From contig JAUQWQ010000057.1 of NCBI GenBank assembly GCA_030835085.1, positions 1 through 49,768 on the forward strand: 49,768 nucleotides of DNA, read 5' to 3'. The translations under genes and the position numbers were made by a program. The stretch is from Ignavibacteria bacterium (GTDB taxonomy: Bacteria; Bacteroidota; Ignavibacteria; Tepidaquicellales; OLB5). Positions 16,048 to 23,576 of the stretch are shown piece after piece (the first letter of the stretch is position 1; every line of letters starts with the position of its first letter). The notes beneath the pieces were generated by a model, which worked only from the letters and a program-made list of their open reading frames with translations, did no database searches and was not told the DNA's origin.

Positions 16048-16064
16048 TTAATCAATTTATCCCC

Positions 16065-16088
16065 GCTGTTGGTCTTGTGACCAACAGC
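16065..16088 (+). terminator. Hairpin after acs, possible terminator without T-run
   Basis: GCTGTTGGTC and GACCAACAGC form a perfect 10-bp stem with a TTGT loop, 17 nt after the acs stop. There is no T-run, so it may be a dispersed palindrome or an RNA-stabilising hairpin instead. Confidence 0.5.
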
Positions 16089-16144
16089 ATAAGGCAAAGC
16101 AGAGCACGTATGACGAGGATGAAAGTGATTGGAGTCTTTTCAAC

Positions 16145-16234
16145 CTGTCATGCTGAACTTGTTTCAGCATCTGTCTGCACACCGAAAAAACAGAGAGTAT
16201 GGCAACAGACCCTGAAACAAGTTCAGGGTGACAA
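16145..16234. repeat. Inverted pair of dispersed 'TGCTGAACTTGTTTCAGCA'-type elements
   Basis: Unit 1 (16145-16173) contains TGCTGAACTTGTTTCAGCA. Unit 2 (16206-16234) contains CCTGAAACAAGTTCAGGG on the opposite strand, so together they can form a long hairpin. In-frame reading gives the familiar spurious peptides HAELVSAS and LKQVQGDK, known from many bacterial genomes. No real protein is encoded here. Confidence 0.8.
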
Positions 16235-16316
16235 AACACAGGAAAATAGCCTGCTTAAAAATATTAGTATGATTACAATGTTGAAAAGGATTTTAAAAAA
16301 CGGATAATTTATATTC

Positions 16317-16589
16317 ATGCTCACACCAAAATACAACATACTCCTTAACGGAAAATACTTTGATGCATTTTACCCGGTAGATTATTACAATGATAAAAAA
16401 TTGTTTCATGATTCCGGGGCGAGGCAGTTTTTTGTAATTTACCAGTTAGCCTGCAGCAGGAATCATGTATTAACAATTGAAGAAACCGGAATCAATAGCA
16501 AAATTGTTATAAATAATGAATTGCAGTTTAAAGAGTGGGTAGCGGAAAACTACCCAATGTACATAAACTACCTTGAAAATTACAACTAA
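16317..16589 (+). CDS. Hypothetical protein, 90 residues
   Basis: I do not recognise this family. It is a soluble-looking, tyrosine- and asparagine-rich protein with no signal peptide or membrane helix, containing LLNGKYFDAFYPVDYYND near the amino end and ending WVAENYPMYINYLENYN. Its stop is 5 nt before the first secreted paralog gene. A 24-nt relic encoding the same ending (NYLENFN, then stop) lies 5 nt before the second paralog, so this gene was once duplicated together with its neighbour. That supports it as a real gene in an operon with the paralog family. Confidence 0.65.
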   Translation: MLTPKYNILLNGKYFDAFYPVDYYNDKKLFHDSGARQFFVIYQLACSRNHVLTIEETGINSKIVINNELQFKEWVAENYPMYINYLENYN

Positions 16590-16594
16590 ACTAT

Positions 16595-17125
16595 ATGAAA
16601 CTGTTAATAGCGTTTCTCTTAACTTCATCCATCCTCTTTGCACAAAGCGATTCTGTTTATAAATATACTCTACCAGAGCTTAAAATTACCCAATCCGAAA
16701 ATGGTAAAGATGTAACGTATGGATTTGCCGAAGAGAGGAATATAATGCTCGTGCGTGATTCTATACTTATTGGCGATCCAGAGAGATATAAATACCAGGT
16801 GCCAATTGGCAATATAAGGAAATTATCAATACTTGATGGAAATTATGGATGGCGCGGTGCTAAGGTAATGGGGCTTGTCGGCGGTGGATTAGGTGTATTG
16901 ATGGGGGGAATATTTGTGGCTGCATATGGCGGTATTACTGATAAAACGGGATTGATCATAGCAGCCCCTGCTTTTTTGTTGGCTGGTATACTAACAGGCG
17001 GGTTAGTAGGCGGTATTTTGGGCTCTGCTATTCCTTATTTTGAGGAGTATTCAAAATTTTCAGATGACACCCGGGCGAAAAAAGAGATATTGAAACGGAT
17101 TTTTAAGAAGCATAATTTGAGATGA
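16595..17125 (+). CDS. Secreted glycine-rich two-helix protein, paralog family copy 1
   Basis: A 176-residue protein with a signal peptide (about 1-17, ending LFAQ) and the short conserved stretch SVYKYTLPELKI. A variable beta-rich region follows. Two glycine-zipper-like helices (GLVGGGLGVLMGGIF at about 95-109 and GGLVGGILGSAIP at about 140-152) come next. It ends with the conserved EEYSKFS...ILKRIFKKH tail. Three further copies lie at 17232, 18438 and 23049. The helices suggest membrane insertion or oligomer formation. I know no named family for it, and the function is unknown. Confidence 0.75.
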   Translation: MKLLIAFLLTSSILFAQSDSVYKYTLPELKITQSENGKDVTYGFAEERNIMLVRDSILIGDPERYKYQVPIGNIRKLSILDGNYGWRGAKVMGLVGGGLGVLMGGIFVAAYGGITDKTGLIIAAPAFLLAGILTGGLVGGILGSAIPYFEEYSKFSDDTRAKKEILKRIFKKHNLR

Positions 17126-17131
17126 AAAGAA

Positions 17132-17170
17132 CTTCATAAATACCGTAATTGGTATCATGGTTTTATGAAG
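17132..17170 (+). other. Imperfect hairpin between paralog copies 1 and 2
   Basis: CTTCATAAA (17132-17140) pairs with TTTATGAAG (17162-17170), and ATACC with GGTAT inside. The following sequence is AT-rich but lacks a clean T-run, so termination is only a possibility. Confidence 0.35.
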
Positions 17171-17202
17171 CAATATTAAAAAAAATATGTTATCAAATTT
17201 AG

Positions 17203-17226
17203 AATTACCTTGAAAACTTTAACTAA
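17203..17226 (+). pseudogene. 24-nt relic of the 3' end of a 16317-like gene
   Basis: These 24 nt translate as NYLENFN followed by a stop, matching NYLENYN and stop at the end of the gene at 16317-16589. In both places the stop is exactly 5 nt before the ATG of a paralog gene. The preceding codon in this frame is TAG, so only the tail survives. It marks the left edge of an ancient tandem duplication. Confidence 0.55.
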
Positions 17227-17231
17227 ATAAT

Positions 17232-17768
17232 ATGAAGCTGTTATTAGCGTTACTCTTAACTTCATCCATCCTGTACTCACAAAATGATTCAGTTAGCAAA
17301 TTTATTATTCCTGAGTTGTTCATTGAGTTATCAAAAGATACTCTAACTGAAATTTATCATTTTGAAAAAGATTCAAATGTATTTATGCTGAGTTCCGGAA
17401 ATTTGACTGCTGATACAAATTTATATAAATTCAGTAAAGATTTGAGAGAACTGAAAAGCATTAAATTCAGAAATGGGGTATCAACTTATTCTGGTGCGCT
17501 TTATGGCGGGTTAATAGGTACCGGTATTGGTTTGGCAACCGGAATTTTAAATGTAATTACCAATCAGCCACCAACAATCGATGTATTGATGTTATTGCCG
17601 GGTTTTGCTGCTGCGGGGTTTATAGGTGGAGCTTTAATAGGGGGATTTATAGGATCTTTTATCCCTGTTTATGATGCATATAATATGTTTTCATCTGATA
17701 TAAATGTTAAAAAAGAGCAGTTGAGAAAAATTCTGTATAAGAATGATTTGAATAGAAAGAAAAACTAG
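17232..17768 (+). CDS. Secreted glycine-rich two-helix protein, paralog family copy 2
   Basis: A 178-residue paralog of the gene at 16595. The first 60 nt are nearly the same as copy 1 (MKLLLALLLTSSILYSQND versus MKLLIAFLLTSSILFAQSD), which points to a fairly recent tandem duplication. It keeps the IIPELFIEL stretch, two glycine-rich helices (YGGLIGTGIGLATGI and GGALIGGFIGSFIP) and the YDAYNMFS...LRKILYKN tail. It is preceded by a relic of the gene that precedes copy 1. Probably exported and membrane-associated; function unknown. Confidence 0.74.
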   Translation: MKLLLALLLTSSILYSQNDSVSKFIIPELFIELSKDTLTEIYHFEKDSNVFMLSSGNLTADTNLYKFSKDLRELKSIKFRNGVSTYSGALYGGLIGTGIGLATGILNVITNQPPTIDVLMLLPGFAAAGFIGGALIGGFIGSFIPVYDAYNMFSSDINVKKEQLRKILYKNDLNRKKN

Positions 17769-17860
17769 TAATATATTGTTTATTTTTTTTAACAGATCTT
17801 TGCTGCCACGACCTTCAGAGCATGGGTATTATGATTGTTATCTTTAAATTAATAAAAAAA

Positions 17861-17884
17861 GATTCCCGCCTTCGCGGGAATGAC
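17861..17884. repeat. Short palindrome (ATTCCCGC-GCGGGAAT)
   Basis: An 8-bp stem, ATTCCCGC and GCGGGAAT with a 4-nt loop, followed by GAC. This is a widespread kind of intergenic palindrome. It ends 9 nt before the ATG of the PH-domain gene. Confidence 0.6.
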
Positions 17885-17892
17885 TGTATATT

Positions 17893-18423
17893 ATGACAGA
17901 AAATGAACCAATATTAATTAAAGCGCAATTCAATCCTATTGTAAAGACATATATATTCCTGTATGTCCTCGGGATCTTGATTATGACAATTATCGGCATT
18001 CCCTTAGCCATTGTATGGCTCTGCGGATGGGGGCAATGGTTCAGCCGAAATTTTTATGAAAAGCTGTATTGTGTGCTTACCGAAAAACATTTGCGGTTCC
18101 GGATGGGAATATTGTTCACTATTGATAAGACAATCCCGCTGGAAAATATTCAGGATTTGACCTTCTACGAAGGACCCGTGCTGCGTCACTTTAACCTTGC
18201 GATGCTGAAGGTTGAAACGGCAGGGCAGGGCGATAAAACAGGTAACCACATGAAGCTTGTTGGCGTTGTGGATGCTCATTTATTCCGCGCAGCAGTGCTG
18301 GACCAGCGTGAGCTGGTAAAGCGCGGTATGGCTTCAGGGAATTCACTCGGTAACGAGCAAACCGAACTGCTGAGGAGAATTGTTGCAACTCTTGAGAAGA
18401 TTGAAACTAATTTGAAGAAGTGA
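17893..18423 (+). CDS. Membrane protein with bacterial PH domain (bPH_2, YdbS-like)
   Basis: A 176-residue protein. One or two membrane segments lie at about residues 17-47 (IFLYVLGILIMTIIGIPLAI). A bacterial pleckstrin-homology domain follows from about residue 55: the YCVLTEKHLRFRMGILFTIDKTIPLENIQDL pattern, split here into its two strands, is typical of bPH_2. A helical tail ends NEQTELLRRIVATLEKIE. The gene sits between paralog copies 2 and 3, and its stop overlaps a possible GTG start of copy 3. Related proteins are membrane-associated with poorly known roles, some in stress or bacteriocin resistance. No specific function is claimed. Confidence 0.8.
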   Translation: MTENEPILIKAQFNPIVKTYIFLYVLGILIMTIIGIPLAIVWLCGWGQWFSRNFYEKLYCVLTEKHLRFRMGILFTIDKTIPLENIQDLTFYEGPVLRHFNLAMLKVETAGQGDKTGNHMKLVGVVDAHLFRAAVLDQRELVKRGMASGNSLGNEQTELLRRIVATLEKIETNLKK

Positions 18424-18437
18424 AAATTGAGTCTAAA

Positions 18438-18983
18438 ATGAAGATCATTTTGTTAATTTTCTTTACTTCATCCATCCTGTTTTCTCAAACTGAGAAATTA
18501 TATAATACCCGTGATTCAGTTTATAAATTCAAACTTCCGCCGATATCGATTACTGACGAAAGTCTTTCCGGCATTCAGACAACATATTTCAAAAAGGATA
18601 CTAATCTGGTATCGCTAAGAGGTAGTGTTCTCTATGCTGATCGTGATGGATATGAATCCAGTTATCAGGTTATGTTTATCAAATACCTTGTGATACAGAA
18701 TGGGAATCAGTCATTAAAAGCCGCAATGTATAATGGAATTGCAGGTAGCGTCATAGGTTTGTTAACCGGATTGATATTTGTTAATTCCATTCAGTTTGAA
18801 GATAATGCGAAAACCATGGCTTACTTTACTTTAGCCGGCGGATTATCAGGCGGGCTATTGGGTTTTATAATTGGCTCATTTGTGCCAAACTATGATCATT
18901 ATGATGAATTCTCAAAAGACCCTGACATCAAAAGAGAACAATTTAAAAGAATACTGAAAAAGTACGATAGATCAGTAAAATAG
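18438..18983 (+). CDS. Secreted glycine-rich two-helix protein, paralog family copy 3
   Basis: A 181-residue member of the same family as 16595, 17232 and 23049. The frame is open from a GTG at 18420, but the ATG at 18438 is preferred because it begins the signal peptide MKIILLIFFTSSILFSQ. It has the SVYKFKLPPISI stretch, two glycine-rich helices (YNGIAGSVIGLLTGLIF and GGLSGGLLGFIIGSFVP) and the YDHYDEFS...FKRILKKY tail. It follows the PH-domain gene so closely that the two are probably co-transcribed. Confidence 0.74.
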   Translation: MKIILLIFFTSSILFSQTEKLYNTRDSVYKFKLPPISITDESLSGIQTTYFKKDTNLVSLRGSVLYADRDGYESSYQVMFIKYLVIQNGNQSLKAAMYNGIAGSVIGLLTGLIFVNSIQFEDNAKTMAYFTLAGGLSGGLLGFIIGSFVPNYDHYDEFSKDPDIKREQFKRILKKYDRSVK

Positions 18984-19036
18984 ACTTTTTTTAATTATTA
19001 CCTAAAAATGGTATGATTATATTACTCCTGATTTTG

Positions 19037-19044
19037 TAACTTTG
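19037..19044 (+). promoter_or_regulatory. Candidate -7 promoter box (TAACTTTG)
   Basis: TAACTTTG matches TAnnTTTG and would give a leader of roughly 85-90 nt for the TPR gene at 19136. That leader contains a CCGTGAATATCACGG palindrome at about 19081-19095. Confidence 0.4.
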
Positions 19045-19135
19045 CGTTGATTCTGCATTTCAAAAAATTTCCCTTTCATGCCGTGAATATCACGGTTCGG
19101 CTAACAAATAATTAATAAATTTTATTCATAATTCT

Positions 19136-20341
19136 ATGAACAGATATTTTATTGTCCACGCGGCATTATTGCTGCTTGTATTTACGCTGCATGTATTTTC
19201 CCAGGATCAAATGTCGCCTGTATCCGGGGCACATGATATGGAAAAAGTTACAATTGATAAGTATGTCTTCGAGACCGCACTTAACAGCGCGGACAGGACC
19301 ATTACATTCCTGCAATGGGTCATTGGCGTATTTTCAGGAGTCATAACGATACTTTTCGTGATATTTAAATACCGCGATGAGAAGTCGCTTGAAAAGAACC
19401 GCGATGAGCTTAAGGAATCACGGGATAACATTGAACGAATAAGGCTTGAGCTTGTTGATGAAGAGCATAAGCTGAATGTGATGCTTGAAAAGCTGCAGGT
19501 CATGACGCGCGACTATGAAAGCAAGATAACCGGAATTGAAAGGAAAATTTCGAACCTGGAAACCAAAAGCGATGAACTGGATAAGAAAACCGATAACATG
19601 AATGAGATAAACAGGTATTTCAGTATTGCGTATAATTCAGTTGAAAGCGGCAACTACAGCGAAGCTGTTTTGTATTACAGCAGGATAATTGAAACTGAAC
19701 CGGATGAATTGACCCTGAAGGTTGTGCTTAACAACCGGGGGATAGCATACCAGAACCTTGGGAAAAATGACCTTGCCTTAAGGGATTACCAGCGTGTAAT
19801 TGATATGGACCCCAATCATCCGCAATCATATGGCAACAGGGGAAATATCTTTGATACATTAGGCAATTATGATAAAGCTGTTGCTGATTACACTAAGGGC
19901 ATTGAACTGAAAAGCGATTATACAGACGCCTATTATAACAGGGGGTGGGTATACTTGAAACAGAAAAGTTACCGTGCGGCGGCGGAGGATTTCAAGAAAC
20001 TTCTCGAGCTTCAGCCGGATGATATTGAAACAATGTTCAGCCTTGCAGAAGCGTACCTGATGTTAAACGAACATGCATCATTTCTGAATGTATTGGTTCA
20101 GATAAGGCGAACAGGTGTTAATGCCGGCAATGAATCCATATTGCTGATGCTGGAGCTGATACAAAAAATTGTTTCCGGAAGCACAGTCCATGACCCCGCA
20201 AAACAGCTTAAAGCTGCTATAGAAAAATACGGCAGAGTTAATTGGAGTCTTGCAGAACTCTCTTCCTGGACGGAATCCTCAAAGGAATTAAATGAACATC
20301 AGAAACTGATGGTGAAAGAAGTTCTCGAAGTAGCGGGATAG
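19136..20341 (+). CDS. Membrane-anchored coiled-coil and TPR protein
   Basis: A 401-residue protein with a signal peptide or first helix (about 1-22, ending VFSQ) and a second membrane helix at about residues 56-79 (WVIGVFSGVITILFVIFKY). A charged coiled coil runs from about 83 to 160. At least three tetratricopeptide repeats lie between about 160 and 300, including the NNRGIAYQNLGKNDLALRDY and YNRGWVYLKQKSY units. The layout suggests a scaffold that holds a partner at the membrane through the coiled coil and TPR surface. No enzyme domain is visible and no partner is identified from the neighbours. Confidence 0.8.
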   Translation: MNRYFIVHAALLLLVFTLHVFSQDQMSPVSGAHDMEKVTIDKYVFETALNSADRTITFLQWVIGVFSGVITILFVIFKYRDEKSLEKNRDELKESRDNIERIRLELVDEEHKLNVMLEKLQVMTRDYESKITGIERKISNLETKSDELDKKTDNMNEINRYFSIAYNSVESGNYSEAVLYYSRIIETEPDELTLKVVLNNRGIAYQNLGKNDLALRDYQRVIDMDPNHPQSYGNRGNIFDTLGNYDKAVADYTKGIELKSDYTDAYYNRGWVYLKQKSYRAAAEDFKKLLELQPDDIETMFSLAEAYLMLNEHASFLNVLVQIRRTGVNAGNESILLMLELIQKIVSGSTVHDPAKQLKAAIEKYGRVNWSLAELSSWTESSKELNEHQKLMVKEVLEVAG

Positions 20342-20389
20342 TGTTATACTCAGCTGCCTAAATTGAATCATAAGCTGAACGCAGATAAT

Positions 20390-20412
20390 CGGGACTAAAG
20401 TCCCGGTCTTTA
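20390..20412. repeat. Short palindrome after the TPR gene (CGGGAC-GTCCCG)
   Basis: CGGGAC, TAAA, GTCCCG is followed by GTCTTTATT. It may be a weak terminator for the TPR gene or a dispersed palindrome. Confidence 0.45.
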
Positions 20413-20498
20413 TTGTGAGTGATTTTTTTCAACGCTCTGAAGAGCGGAGCTAATCAAGAGTCGTTGGAAGAATATTTGAAAACATTTACCCACACCAA

Positions 20499-20517
20499 CT
20501 CCCCCTGTTAGGGGGAG
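20499..20517. repeat. CTCCCCCT-AGGGGGAG palindrome
   Basis: A perfect 8-bp stem with a 3-nt loop, related by composition to the element at the cydA 3' end. It lies in the roughly 290-nt non-coding gap between the TPR gene and the serine hydrolase gene. Confidence 0.55.
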
Positions 20518-20603
20518 AGCGACAAATCTCAACTTCCGCCAATTCCACCTTAAAGAAAAGAACCATAGATCAGGATTTTTCATAGTTTTGCTATTTTTCC
20601 AAA

Positions 20604-20640
20604 ATTGTTTTTTTGCTTTCTTACTTTTGCCTTTTCACTT
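20604..20640. repeat. Low-complexity run at the serine hydrolase gene 3' end
   Basis: In the sense of the serine hydrolase gene (minus strand) this is AAAGTGAAAAGGCAAAAGTAAG and further A/G-rich words spanning the stop codon. It resembles 8481-8518 and 28971-29013. Confidence 0.55.
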
Positions 20641-21957
20641 TAATTCCAGCTTCTCCAGCATCTTCCGGGCATTTTGATTTCCCGGGTCAAGCTCCAGTAC
20701 CTTTTTGTAGTTTGCAATAGCCAGTTCATTTTCGCCTTTGTTCATATAAGCTTCGGCAAGTGAATCCCATACATTTGGCTCACCCGGAAATAATTTAGCA
20801 TTCAGCTTAAACACTTCAATTGCATCATCAAGCAGATTATCGTTCATTAACTCATAACCGAAGAAGTTGAGATGACGGTCGTTATACAGCATACCATTTG
20901 CTTCAAGGATCTGTTTCAGTGAACTCTCAAGCTTTACAATTCCTCCGTTTTTCAGAATGGCATACATTTTCATTTCCAAAGTAACGTCAGGTTTTGGGTA
21001 ATCTTTTCCGTTCATAGCATCCTCAAACCGCATAATAATCTCATCGGCTACCTGCCCGAAATTGGAATTAATTATAACAGTGTAACCATCTTTCATCTGA
21101 GCAAGCACACTGTTCCACACAGGTGTGCCTCCGGCACGGATTCCCGCACCGATGAGACCTGTTTGCCTTAAATATTGGTCAAGCTTCAGCAGGTCGCGGG
21201 CATTTGAAAACATTCCACCGGCAGGCGAAGGTTGCTCGGTAAACGGAGAGTTAACTTTGTTGCCGGAAAAAGTAATTCTTGTGCCGCTCGCCATATTGGG
21301 AACAGTTTCACCAATGAGTAAATAGTGAGTATTGTTCATACCTAAAGGATTTATCAGTCGTTCTTTAAGGTTATCAACATAACTTTTGCCTGTTACTTTT
21401 TCTATAATGCCTCCAAGTACAACGTAACCTGAATTTGAATACTCCTGTGCTGTACCGGGTTCAAAAAGCAGCGGTTCATCTTTAATTATTTCAAGGAAAT
21501 CGTTCACAGTTTTGAATTTACCCCTGTTTTGGTTGAATGCCGGGTTCATTAAATAATCACCCAGTCCGGCTTTCATCTCAATCAGCATTTTTATTGTGAT
21601 CTTATCGCCTGTTTCTTTAGGATACATGTCTGAATACTTACTTAATGGATCATCGAGACTGAGCTTATTTTCTTTTTCAAGCTGTTTGATCATAGTATGT
21701 GTGAACATCTTGTTCAGCGAGCCGATTCTGAACAGTGTTTCAGGAGTCACCGGAGTTTTCTGCTCCCAGTCAGCGTACCCGAATTGCTTTTCGTAAATAA
21801 TATTGCCGTCCTTTGCGATAAGCACATTCCCGGAAAACAATCCAAGATCATTATACTCATTTACTATCTTGTCAAGTTTATCAGCATATTCATCAGCAAA
21901 AATATTATTTATTAAAACAGCAAAAAGGAGGATTTTTATTAACATATTTAGATTCAT
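20635..21957 (-). CDS. Beta-lactamase-like serine hydrolase (class C/PBP fold) fused to TPR
   Basis: A 440-residue exported protein with a signal peptide (about 1-21). The serine beta-lactamase/esterase domain has the SLNK motif with Ser80 and Lys83, then YSN at 173-175 and the SPAGGMFS segment. The third motif region is compressed: the usual stretch before the HxG-type motif seems to be missing about 40 residues, leaving only RAGGTP at about 274-279, so activity may be altered or lost. At least one TPR unit follows at about 395-430 (NVWDSLAEAYMNKGENE). Members of the family act on cell-wall peptides, esters or lactams; the substrate here is unknown. Confidence 0.85.
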   Translation of the reverse strand: MNLNMLIKILLFAVLINNIFADEYADKLDKIVNEYNDLGLFSGNVLIAKDGNIIYEKQFGYADWEQKTPVTPETLFRIGSLNKMFTHTMIKQLEKENKLSLDDPLSKYSDMYPKETGDKITIKMLIEMKAGLGDYLMNPAFNQNRGKFKTVNDFLEIIKDEPLLFEPGTAQEYSNSGYVVLGGIIEKVTGKSYVDNLKERLINPLGMNNTHYLLIGETVPNMASGTRITFSGNKVNSPFTEQPSPAGGMFSNARDLLKLDQYLRQTGLIGAGIRAGGTPVWNSVLAQMKDGYTVIINSNFGQVADEIIMRFEDAMNGKDYPKPDVTLEMKMYAILKNGGIVKLESSLKQILEANGMLYNDRHLNFFGYELMNDNLLDDAIEVFKLNAKLFPGEPNVWDSLAEAYMNKGENELAIANYKKVLELDPGNQNARKMLEKLELK

Positions 21958-22132
21958 ATCAGATTATATTATTGGTTATATCAAAATGACGCTATTGTGA
22001 GCTAAAAAGTCGCAAAAATATTAATTTGTAATTTTTAGTTTGTGAAATTAATCTTATTTTAGAATGTTATATGTAAAGTTGCATTATCTATTTAGCTGAT
22101 CATTTCGCAATTTCTTTAATTGACTAATTCAT

Positions 22133-22140
22133 TAATTTTG
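22133..22140 (+). promoter_or_regulatory. Candidate -7 promoter box (TAATTTTG)
   Basis: TAATTTTG fits TAnnTTTG and lies 24 nt before the ATG of the DUF1801 gene. No -33 element is convincing. Confidence 0.3.
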
Positions 22141-22164
22141 AACTCAATATTTCACTTTTAAATT

Positions 22165-22581
22165 ATGGCGGAAAATAAAACCAAACCAACTAAAGTTAGC
22201 GTTAAGAAATTCATAGATTCTGTTGAAGATGTACAGAAGCGAAAGGATAGTTATGTTTTGATAGATTTGATGAAAAAGATAACAAAAGCTGATCCAAAAA
22301 TGTGGGGGCCGACTATTGTTGGGTTCGGTTCCTATCACTATAAATATGAATCAGGCCATGAAGGTGATACCTGCCTTACCGGTTTTTCTCCGCGCAAAGC
22401 TGCATTTTCTATCTATGCAATGTGCGGACGTGGTTATGATGAATACCTGGATAAACTAGGAAAATTTAAACATGGTAACGGCGGCTGTATTTATATAAAA
22501 AGGCTTTCAGATATTGATCTGAAAGTACTTAAAGACTTGATCACTGCATCTGTAAAAGATACAAAAAAGAAATGGGGTTGA
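22165..22581 (+). CDS. DUF1801 (YdhG-like) domain protein
   Basis: A 138-residue cytosolic protein. The amino end KVSVKKFIDSVEDVQKRKD and the motif MWGPTIVGFGSYHYKYESGHEGD are diagnostic of DUF1801. The carboxyl half has FSPRKAAFSIYAMCG and GGCIYIKRLSDID, also typical. The family is related to the frataxin-like YdhG fold, and its function is not established. It is followed 1 nt later by the DUF3592 gene and then a secreted paralog, suggesting a short operon. Confidence 0.86.
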   Translation: MAENKTKPTKVSVKKFIDSVEDVQKRKDSYVLIDLMKKITKADPKMWGPTIVGFGSYHYKYESGHEGDTCLTGFSPRKAAFSIYAMCGRGYDEYLDKLGKFKHGNGGCIYIKRLSDIDLKVLKDLITASVKDTKKKWG

Positions 22582-22582
22582 T

Positions 22583-23035
22583 TTGTCACAAAATGATCTT
22601 TTTCTGATTTTTGGAGTTAACGGGTTTATTTCATTGACAGCGCTGGCTATTGGTATCATATCCTATATAAGGACCAAAAAATTTCTTGCATCTGCAATAG
22701 AAACCCGCGGCATTGTAGTACAATCGGTATTTAAAAGCTCAGGTGATGATGGCTCAGGAAGTATGTACTCTCCAATGATTCGTTTTACAGACAGAATGGG
22801 GAAACAATATGATTTCACCGAAAACTGGTCAAGCAACCGCCCCGATTTTAAGATTGGAGATGAAGTTATAGTCCTCTACGATCCCGCCCGGCCGCAAAAA
22901 GCAAGGCGCGGGGGAAAGAAATGGAAATTCTTTTTTGTTGCATGGCTTGTTGGCGGATTGGGAATTTTATTTACCGGTATCCTGTTGTTATTTTTAATCA
23001 TCATGTTGTTTGTTCCTTTTAATTTTACTAACTAA
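22583..23035 (+). CDS. DUF3592 membrane protein
   Basis: A 150-residue protein with a membrane helix at each end (about 8-27 and about 117-145) and a small beta-rich domain between. The ARGxV-like beginning (ETRGIVVQSVFKS), YSPMIRFTDRMGKQYDFTE and VLYDPARPQKAR are the marks of DUF3592. The start is TTG at 22583; no ATG exists before residue 55. It begins 1 nt after the DUF1801 stop, so translation is probably coupled. Function unknown. Confidence 0.8.
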   Translation: MSQNDLFLIFGVNGFISLTALAIGIISYIRTKKFLASAIETRGIVVQSVFKSSGDDGSGSMYSPMIRFTDRMGKQYDFTENWSSNRPDFKIGDEVIVLYDPARPQKARRGGKKWKFFFVAWLVGGLGILFTGILLLFLIIMLFVPFNFTN

Positions 23036-23048
23036 TTTTCTAAAGAAA

Positions 23049-23576
23049 ATGAAAACACTAACCTTGCTTCTCGGCTTTTTACTGGCATCTTCAATATATT
23101 CACAAAATGATTCAACCCGCATATTCGGTCTGCCTGAAATGAAAATTAAACAGATGGAAAGCGGTAAAGTTGTAACTTACATGTTTGATAACAGCCTGAA
23201 TAAATTCACATTAACCCCTTTACATCTTTTGCCAGATACAAATAAGTATACATACAAAGCAGATCTTAAGGATATCAGATCCGTATCACTGAGAAACGGC
23301 ACACAGTTATGGAAAGTAGCGGGAATCGTCGGGTCAGTTGGTTTTTTCCTGGGATTCGTCGCAGGCGGCTTCCTGGATATTCATAAAAGCCCTACTTTCC
23401 ATGTTGACCAGGCGTTTGCACTTGGTGCGTTAACCGCAGTTCCATTTGCACTCATTGGCGGTATAGTCGGTGCCCTTTCACCTGCATTTGATGATTACAG
23501 CTTTTCAGGAAAAACTGATAAGCAAAAGTATGATGAACTGAGCAGAATATTCAAAAAGTACCGCCAGAAAAGATAA
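23049..23576 (+). CDS. Secreted glycine-rich two-helix protein, paralog family copy 4
   Basis: A 175-residue, more distant member of the family at 16595. The ATG at 23049 is chosen because it starts the signal peptide MKTLTLLLGFLLASSIYSQ; a longer frame from 23010 has no such start. Conserved parts are LPEMKIKQMESGKVVTYMF (very close to copy 1), two hydrophobic glycine-rich helices (VGSVGFFLGFVAGGF and IGGIVGALSPAF) and the DDYSFS...LSRIFKKY tail. It lies 13 nt after the DUF3592 gene and is about 4 kb from the other three copies. Confidence 0.72.
   Translation: MKTLTLLLGFLLASSIYSQNDSTRIFGLPEMKIKQMESGKVVTYMFDNSLNKFTLTPLHLLPDTNKYTYKADLKDIRSVSLRNGTQLWKVAGIVGSVGFFLGFVAGGFLDIHKSPTFHVDQAFALGALTAVPFALIGGIVGALSPAFDDYSFSGKTDKQKYDELSRIFKKYRQKR

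Follow-up and report, generated by a model that had tools for sequence, protein, structure and literature searches.

Genes at the locus

The window (the whole stretch of 49,768 nucleotides of Ignavibacteria DNA that was analysed) carries four related open reading frames, all present where the first-pass annotation had placed them, in a neighbourhood with the following features:

16317..16589, + strand: 90-aa protein, no Pfam match above cut-off
16570..16603, + strand: 34-nt stretch, first occurrence, at the end of the 90-aa gene and the start of copy 1
16595..17125, + strand: copy 1, 176 aa, with signal peptide, beta domain, glycine-rich hairpin, and C-terminal strand and basic helix, starting 5 nt past the 90-aa gene
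17207..17240, + strand: 34-nt stretch, second occurrence, in the intergenic leader and the start of copy 2
17232..17768, + strand: copy 2, 178 aa, layout as copy 1, AF2 model with pLDDT 83.9
17893..18423, + strand: bPH_2 (bacterial PH-domain) protein, conserved neighbour, in 10/13 genus genomes
18438..18983, + strand: copy 3, 181 aa, layout as copy 1, starting 14 nt past the PH-domain gene
19136..20341, + strand: TPR protein, recurrent neighbour
22165..22581, + strand: DUF1801 protein, recurrent neighbour, ahead of the copy-4 slot
22583..23035, + strand: DUF3592 protein, directly ahead of copy 4
23049..23576, + strand: copy 4, 175 aa, layout as copy 1, starting 13 nt past the DUF3592 gene, AF2 model with pLDDT 85.0

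The open reading frame list also offers in-frame starts upstream of copy 3 (GTG at 18420) and copy 4 (TTG at 23010), and the ATG codons at 18438 and 23049 are the better fit to the relatives. The domain names given earlier to three of the neighbours were borne out by the profile scores (bPH_2, 41.2 bits against a cut-off of 22; DUF1801, 37.0 against 27.2; DUF3592, 42.8 against 25.3), and the 90-aa gene is probably an operon partner of copy 1.

The four copies are full-length homologues, as had been proposed, copies 2, 3, and 4 sharing 36, 37, and 36% identity with copy 1, and their alignment holds 29 invariant columns spread along its length. A search of the same genome with copy 2 returned the four copies at E <= 2e-21 and one match at E 0.12. 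Every copy has a signal peptide ending in (S/A)Q and an N-terminal LPE, IPE, or LPP, in keeping with the features first noticed, and none has a cysteine anywhere in its translation. The earlier description of two glycine-rich helices holds for the two hydrophobic glycine-rich segments of each copy and is incomplete in omitting a beta domain; likewise, the basic C-terminal segment occurs in 4/4 copies, and the motif written for it is approximate, with a literal fit in 0/4. For copies 3 and 4, dN/dS was 0.04–0.13 in four pairs of orthologues, which indicates purifying selection, the ratios being rough for the two pairs with dS above 1.5.

Predicted architecture

The AF2 models of copies 2 and 4, both built from the same 11 sequences, agree on one layout from N to C terminus: signal peptide, small beta domain, helical hairpin with a GxxxGxxxGxxxG pattern, one strand, and a basic helix. 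The stretch of approximately 65 residues that separates the signal peptide from helix 1 is predicted as the beta domain, with about six short strands, and the hairpin is predicted to consist of two helices of about 22–27 residues each, after which the models place the strand and the further helix.

The reading of these helices as glycine zippers is upheld by the conserved four-residue spacing of G88, G92, G96, and G100 of copy 2. Among 17 divergent members, G96 is invariant and G88, G92, G100, and G137 are nearly so (copy 2 numbering), and the helices thus conserve the repeated small-xxx-small (GxxxG) spacing by which the glycine-zipper hairpin class is recognized. Against composition shuffles, the number of GxxxG motifs is in clear excess in copies 2 (p 0.006) and 3 (p 0.0002), with no clear excess in copies 1 and 4 (p 0.11 and 0.13). 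Each copy has two hydrophobic segments, with best-window Kyte-Doolittle means of 1.44–2.27 and Wimley-White values of −0.8 to −5.9 kcal/mol, the hydrophobicity of helix 1 being only marginal in copies 1 and 2; from this hydropathy, the hairpin likely inserts in a membrane. Copies 3 and 4 alone show a clear amphipathic character in their best C-terminal window (shuffle fractions 0.001 and 0.016, against 0.086 and 0.374 in copies 1 and 2), and all of these fractions are flattering because the windows were chosen as maxima.

Distribution in the genus and proposed turnover of copies

Strong relatives occur only in the genus of the window, where 10 of the 13 genomes have 20 copies between them, located in fragments of a single conserved neighbourhood, and the same neighbours recur beside them across the genus loci. 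Relatives occupy the copy-4 slot in genomes G012, G005, G002, G009, and G008. The number of copies per genome varies from 0 to 4, and hybrid copies are found within the genus family.

Copies 1 and 2 had been taken for recent duplicates at the nucleotide level, a claim that does not stand: identity is 60.0% over the whole genes and 57.3% after the signal peptide, rising to 82.6% only in a 92-nt block of 5' leader and signal peptide, and in the tree copy 1 groups with the copies of G001 and copy 2 with that of G003. The 34-nt stretch that recurs ahead of copy 2 is probably the footprint of the duplication. From the range of copy numbers, the locus of G004 with zero copies, and the hybrids, the copy set of a genome may turn over through tandem duplication, loss, and fusion of copies, and the range of copy numbers in a single neighbourhood offers natural losses and expansions for work on function.

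A wider group of related proteins

The comparisons of sequence profiles indicate that the genus family is part of a broader, unnamed group of envelope proteins with the same layout, found in the same genome, the order, and the phylum. Aligned by hhalign with 15 non-overlapping distant relatives, a set that includes both a 163-aa paralogue and proteins of about 240 aa, the mature part of the family reached Prob 99.3%, and its beta, glycine, and tail segments matched separately at 84, 94, and 94.5%. With the 240-aa proteins alone the mature part gave Prob 98.9%, and the reversed-alignment control scored 33.6 vs 106.2 for the forward alignment. These segment-wise matches, together with the control, rule out a similarity confined to signal peptide and helices. 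The reversed control still had Prob 63%, showing that the composition of the glycine-rich part has a real effect, for which reason weak matches of the group profile were not trusted on E-value alone.

Within the same genome, the 163-aa paralogue and a tandem pair of the 240-aa proteins (contigs C138 and C25) share with the copies the signal peptide, a beta segment ending in a '[DN]xIxxIxF'-like strand, a hairpin with a GxxxG ridge, and a 'DxYxL...K....I' tail. They differ in having less than 30% identity to copy 2 and in lying at different loci, and the 240-aa proteins also carry extra N-terminal sequence. An internal repeat in the latter found no support, the first and second beta segments matching at only Prob 0.9%.

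A search of the phylum gave a match at E <= 0.001 in 60 of 395 genomes, many rows covering nothing beyond the signal peptide; as we read the table, matches that begin no later than position 62 and extend at least to position 149 occur in 20 of the 392 non-genus genomes. Among the matches of these 20 genomes, the G321 protein at L114 looks unrelated on reading, as do the shorter phylum matches at L118, L120, and L121.

Known families

That the copies belong to no named family, as first suspected, agrees with finding nothing above cut-off in Pfam-A or NCBIfam. None of the PADLOC anti-phage defence profiles matched any of the four copies at E <= 0.01, PDB chain sequences gave none below E 0.69 (chance-level rows only), and a structure search of PDB and BFVD had no match at E <= 0.001. 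Neither Rick_17kDa_Anti (PF05433) nor LSM (PF01423) was matched by the four copies at E <= 1 or by 19 family members at E <= 0.05. Literature searches for a glycine zipper combined with an Sm-like barrel, the periplasm, Ignavibacteria, or the neighbour domains found no description of such proteins.

Discussion

The explanation we favour, tentatively and with a probability of about 0.4, is that the copies are exported envelope proteins in which a periplasm-facing barrel is anchored in the membrane by a self-packing hairpin, probably as oligomers with a structural or regulatory role. If the predicted Sec-type signal peptide is cleaved and the hairpin spans a membrane, the beta domain and the basic helix would lie together on the periplasmic face. 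The GxxxG ridge would pack one helix onto the other and probably also onto neighbouring subunits, giving homo-oligomers or hetero-oligomers of paralogues. Their role would most likely be structural or regulatory rather than catalytic, stabilising or scaffolding membrane proteins of the envelope, possibly the PH and DUF3592 proteins encoded nearby. The pairing of a small beta domain with a glycine-zipper hairpin is a recurring, uncharacterised design, seen in Ignavibacteria and also further across the phylum.

A closer tie to these neighbours, with the copies serving as accessory subunits in an inner-membrane complex that they form with the PH-domain and DUF3592 proteins, is the best of the other explanations and still an unlikely one. 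It would suit the gaps of 14 nt between PH gene and copy 3 and of 13 nt between DUF3592 gene and copy 4, the copy adjoining the PH gene in loci of G001, G003, G008, and G012, and the DUF3592-copy pair that recurs in G012, G002, G009, and G008. However, G004 has the neighbourhood and keeps PH, TPR, and DUF3592 with zero copies, so that these neighbours can do without the family; G010 has a copy and no PH match, and the members of the wider group have different genes around them.

Somewhat less probable is an outer-membrane guard of the SlyB kind, in which the hairpins enter the outer membrane under stress and form rings enclosing outer-membrane proteins. Like SlyB and other members of Rick_17kDa_Anti and of further Pfam glycine-zipper families, the copies are small exported proteins with a glycine-zipper hairpin. 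In the copies this hairpin is glycine-rich and in part only marginally hydrophobic, which would suit the explanation. SlyB, however, is described as a lipoprotein with a lipobox cysteine at the end of its signal peptide, and the copies lack both lipobox and cysteine; no genus family member matches the profile at E <= 0.05. The soluble domain of SlyB follows the hairpin, whereas the beta domain of the copies precedes it. Should the copies prove to form rings, they would be a counterpart of SlyB built on another soluble domain.

That these are secreted proteins of antagonism or pore formation, divergent small glycine-zipper proteins permeabilising other cells, is very improbable, although the copies have multiplied in tandem and diverged strongly and one distant relative weakly resembles Bacteriocin_IIc (E 0.21, under the cut-off). 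Against it stand the conserved beta domain, the purifying selection seen between orthologues for copies 3 and 4, and the related 163-aa paralogue, which is highly conserved and adjoins genes that read as ribosomal-protein genes; among the neighbours read, we noticed neither an immunity gene nor a dedicated export system.

To return to the anchored envelope barrel, a narrower form of it, which we regard as a long shot, would make the barrel a periplasmic Sm-like ring-builder above a matching membrane ring of hairpins, the paralogues of a genome entering mixed rings. If true, it would be a use of the Sm ring principle in the bacterial envelope, with the make-up of the rings determined by how copies have duplicated and fused.

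Other proteins of the phylum have a barrel followed directly by a glycine-rich hairpin, for instance the three-unit L106, which the group profile matches over positions 60–145; unlike that of the copies, its barrel is matched by Pfam LSM, the three units together scoring 47.3 bits against a cut-off of 23.4, and L107 scores just under that cut-off. The LSM match of a distant relative hints at an Sm/SH3-like barrel in the copies. The beta domain of the four copies matches the second segment of the 240-aa proteins over 27 columns only (Prob 46%), so their Sm-likeness draws on the model and distant relatives only. In structural comparison, the Gemin6/Gemin7 chain 1y96_B scored Z 3.1 (rmsd 2.9, 52 residues), on a par with other small barrels such as Rtt106 (Z 3.0) and GatD (Z 3.6). 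The strand order of the AF2 models would also fit a PH-like fold (seven-strand split barrel with a C-terminal helix), and model 2 has the PH domain of REC114 as its first Foldseek row, but at E 0.16 and prob 0.57. The hairpin, with no sequence relation found and a Z range that may reflect merely a common arrangement, shares its geometry alone with TIM23 complex subunits including MGR2 (9j9b_D, 8e1m_B; Z 6.6–7.6 over 59–65 residues, rmsd 2.2–3.0).

Family and distribution

The window belongs to a genome of 4.05 Mb (99% complete) and carries on its + strand four genes for exported proteins of 176, 178, 181 and 175 aa, listed here with two neighbours:

16317..16589 (+), 90-aa gene
16595..17125 (+), copy 1
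17232..17768 (+), copy 2
17893..18423, bPH_2-domain (PH) protein
18438..18983 (+), copy 3
23049..23576 (+), copy 4

The common ancestry proposed for them in the first-pass annotation was borne out by end-to-end alignment, with 36-37% identity to copy 1. A search of their own genome with copy 2 recovered all four with E-values no higher than 2e-21, and no further match at E < 0.1. They had also been thought to lie outside any known family, and indeed no Pfam-A or NCBIfam model attains its cut-off for the four copies; a PADLOC scan of them gave no match either. The profile search suggested for their distribution, run with the four-copy profile over 59 genomes (their own among them), returned matches at E ≤ 0.01 in 29, the strong ones (E < 1e-25) being confined to the genus and found in 10 of its 13 genomes, while a 19-row profile detected 20 copies at E < 1e-30, all in the genus. 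Strong copies are absent from G004, G006 and G007, the last just 64% complete. The four copies belong to a real, unnamed family restricted to the genus, itself an expanded branch of a larger group that likewise has no name.

Loci were compared between the window and nine genus mates, some of them on short contigs, with the neighbouring genes of the mates named from their translations. Relatives have the same neighbours, the gene order recurring piecewise: acs - (90-aa gene) - copy - PH - copy - TPR - beta-lactamase-like - DUF1801 - DUF3592 - copy - YjbQ-like, where acs, beta-lactamase-like and YjbQ-like are putative names. The copy-4 slot is occupied in five genomes (G012, G005, G002, G009 and G008), and in G004, whose genome is 97% complete, the series acs, PH, TPR, DUF3592 is kept without any copy; copy number therefore ranges from 0 to 4 across the genomes searched. 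This natural series of expansions and losses is the main interest of the family, which we consider moderate. An extra copy in G008 (L050:4308-4958) has an N-terminal insertion of ~44 residues, partly like the adjacent copy, as if produced by partial duplication. Immediately upstream of the window's PH-domain gene lies a short GC-rich inverted repeat, cccgccttcgcggg (17860-17890).

Layout and predicted structure

Each copy has a signal peptide with a terminal Q and an N-terminal domain of 65-70 residues, then a pair of hydrophobic segments rich in glycine and finally a basic tail. Cysteine is absent from all four translations, and the copies are therefore not lipoproteins. AlphaFold2, given 11 sequences, modelled mature copy 4 (pLDDT 85.0, pTM 0.67) with strands at 5-9, 12-18, 21-27, 32-36, 40-43, 57-66 and then 126-132, and helices at 68-89, 100-124 and 138-151; the same input gave copy 2 the same element order (pLDDT 83.9). 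In this order the hairpin therefore sits between two strands, the last of which would close the same sheet as the preceding ones. Structure matches of the beta domain were weak and tied: Gemin6/Gemin7 (Z 3.1), Rtt106 (Z 3.0), GatD (Z 3.6) and, for model 2, REC114 (Foldseek prob 0.57-0.60). Gemin6/Gemin7 is Sm-like, whereas Rtt106 and REC114 are PH-like, so that both classes are candidates. The hairpin matched those of the TIM23 complex at Z 6.6-7.6 across 59-65 residues, which may simply reflect an arrangement that is common. Glycines 88, 92, 96 and 100 (copy 2 numbering), spaced by four, are invariant or nearly so among 17 divergent members, and helix 1 is no more than marginally hydrophobic in copies 1 and 2 (Wimley-White -1.2 and -0.8 kcal/mol).

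The wider group and its barrel

Weaker matches within the same taxonomic order share the entire layout. When profiles of 19 sequences from the genus locus and of 15 distant relatives, with no sequence shared, were compared, Prob was 99.7% at full length and 99.3% for the mature part; an earlier comparison, whose two sets had two rows in common, was set aside. The likeness extends beyond signal peptide and helices, since segments taken alone also match (beta 84%, glycine 94%, tail 94.5% Prob). Members discussed here are:

L058:3399-3890 (also L060, L061, L062), 163-aa paralogue and orthologues
L059:4618-6097 and L135:6917-8399, tandem pair of ~240-aa relatives that carry additional beta sequence at the N-terminus
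L106:1378-2907, three-unit protein with tandem LSM-like barrel and glycine-rich hairpin units

The 163-aa paralogue, in the window's own genome, shares 88-91% identity with the orthologues of three genus mates, adjoins genes reading as ribosomal proteins and tsf, and is probably the most constrained member. Tandem members occur in several genomes (L054, L055, L057, L059), and contig C25 of the own genome holds a tandem pair of ~240 aa; some orthologues of these ~240-aa relatives bear a weak likeness to the RimP C-terminal SH3 domain.

Across the phylum, 20 of 392 non-genus genomes gave a match spanning the last strands and hairpin, one apparently false, and L106 is among these matches. Against L106, Pfam LSM scores 47.3 bits (cut-off 23.4) and the model of the RimP C-terminal SH3 domain scores 41.6 (cut-off 26.3), both whole-protein scores summed over repeated units, which suggests an Sm/SH3-like barrel for the wider group. 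The single-unit relative L107 scored 20.2 with LSM, under the cut-off, and LSM matched none of the remaining relatives scanned. In the four copies themselves, the direct link by sequence is confined to the last part of the barrel. Structural studies of the group could well start from L106.

Possible role

An export signal, a small beta domain, a hydrophobic zipper hairpin and a basic tail are shown or predicted in the copies. The hairpin would be inserted in a membrane, inner or outer, with the folded part facing the periplasm, packing would occur through the glycine ridge, the copies might assemble into oligomers, and their role in the envelope would be structural or regulatory. For a possible mode of action the best parallel is SlyB, an outer-membrane lipoprotein that oligomerises, although the four copies show neither a profile match to the SlyB family nor a lipobox cysteine. 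The most daring interpretation, that different copies build Sm-like rings together in the envelope, strikes us as improbable.

History of the copies

Copies 1 and 2 had been called recent duplicates, a view that their divergence contradicts (DNA identity 60.0%, or 57.3% past the signal peptide; dS 1.36). The regions concerned are:

16565-16656 (copy 1) and 17202-17293 (copy 2), 92-nt block
L045 9820-9909, leader and signal-peptide region of the G012 copy behind the 90-aa gene

The 92-nt block, covering leader and signal peptide, is 82.6% identical between the two copies; it takes in the final codons of the 90-aa gene, which are found again in non-coding DNA before copy 2. Leader and signal peptide are far more alike than the mature parts between some copies: the G012 copy is 97% identical to copy 1 over the 30-nt leader, 92% over the first 60 nt and 54% over the rest. 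Its residues 18-50 are copy-1-like (19/33 versus 12/33) and its tail copy-2-like (21/32 versus 10/28), and one G001 copy joins the signal peptide of copy 2 (17/17) to a copy-1-like body at residues 18-50 (22/33 versus 12/33). Fusion or conversion between tandem copies would explain these hybrid patterns, an alternative being that leader and signal peptide are under strong selection.

For copies 3 and 4, dN/dS is 0.04-0.13 in four pairs of orthologues, the values of two pairs being rough (dS above 1.5), and these copies are functional genes; copies 1 and 2 gave 0.17-0.22 against their nearest relatives, or the pairs were saturated. Two overlapping ORFs at 16057-16307, 'HPELVSGS...LKQVQHD' and 'CHAELVSAS...LKQVQGD', are probably spurious and presumably represent a dispersed intergenic repeat of many genomes.
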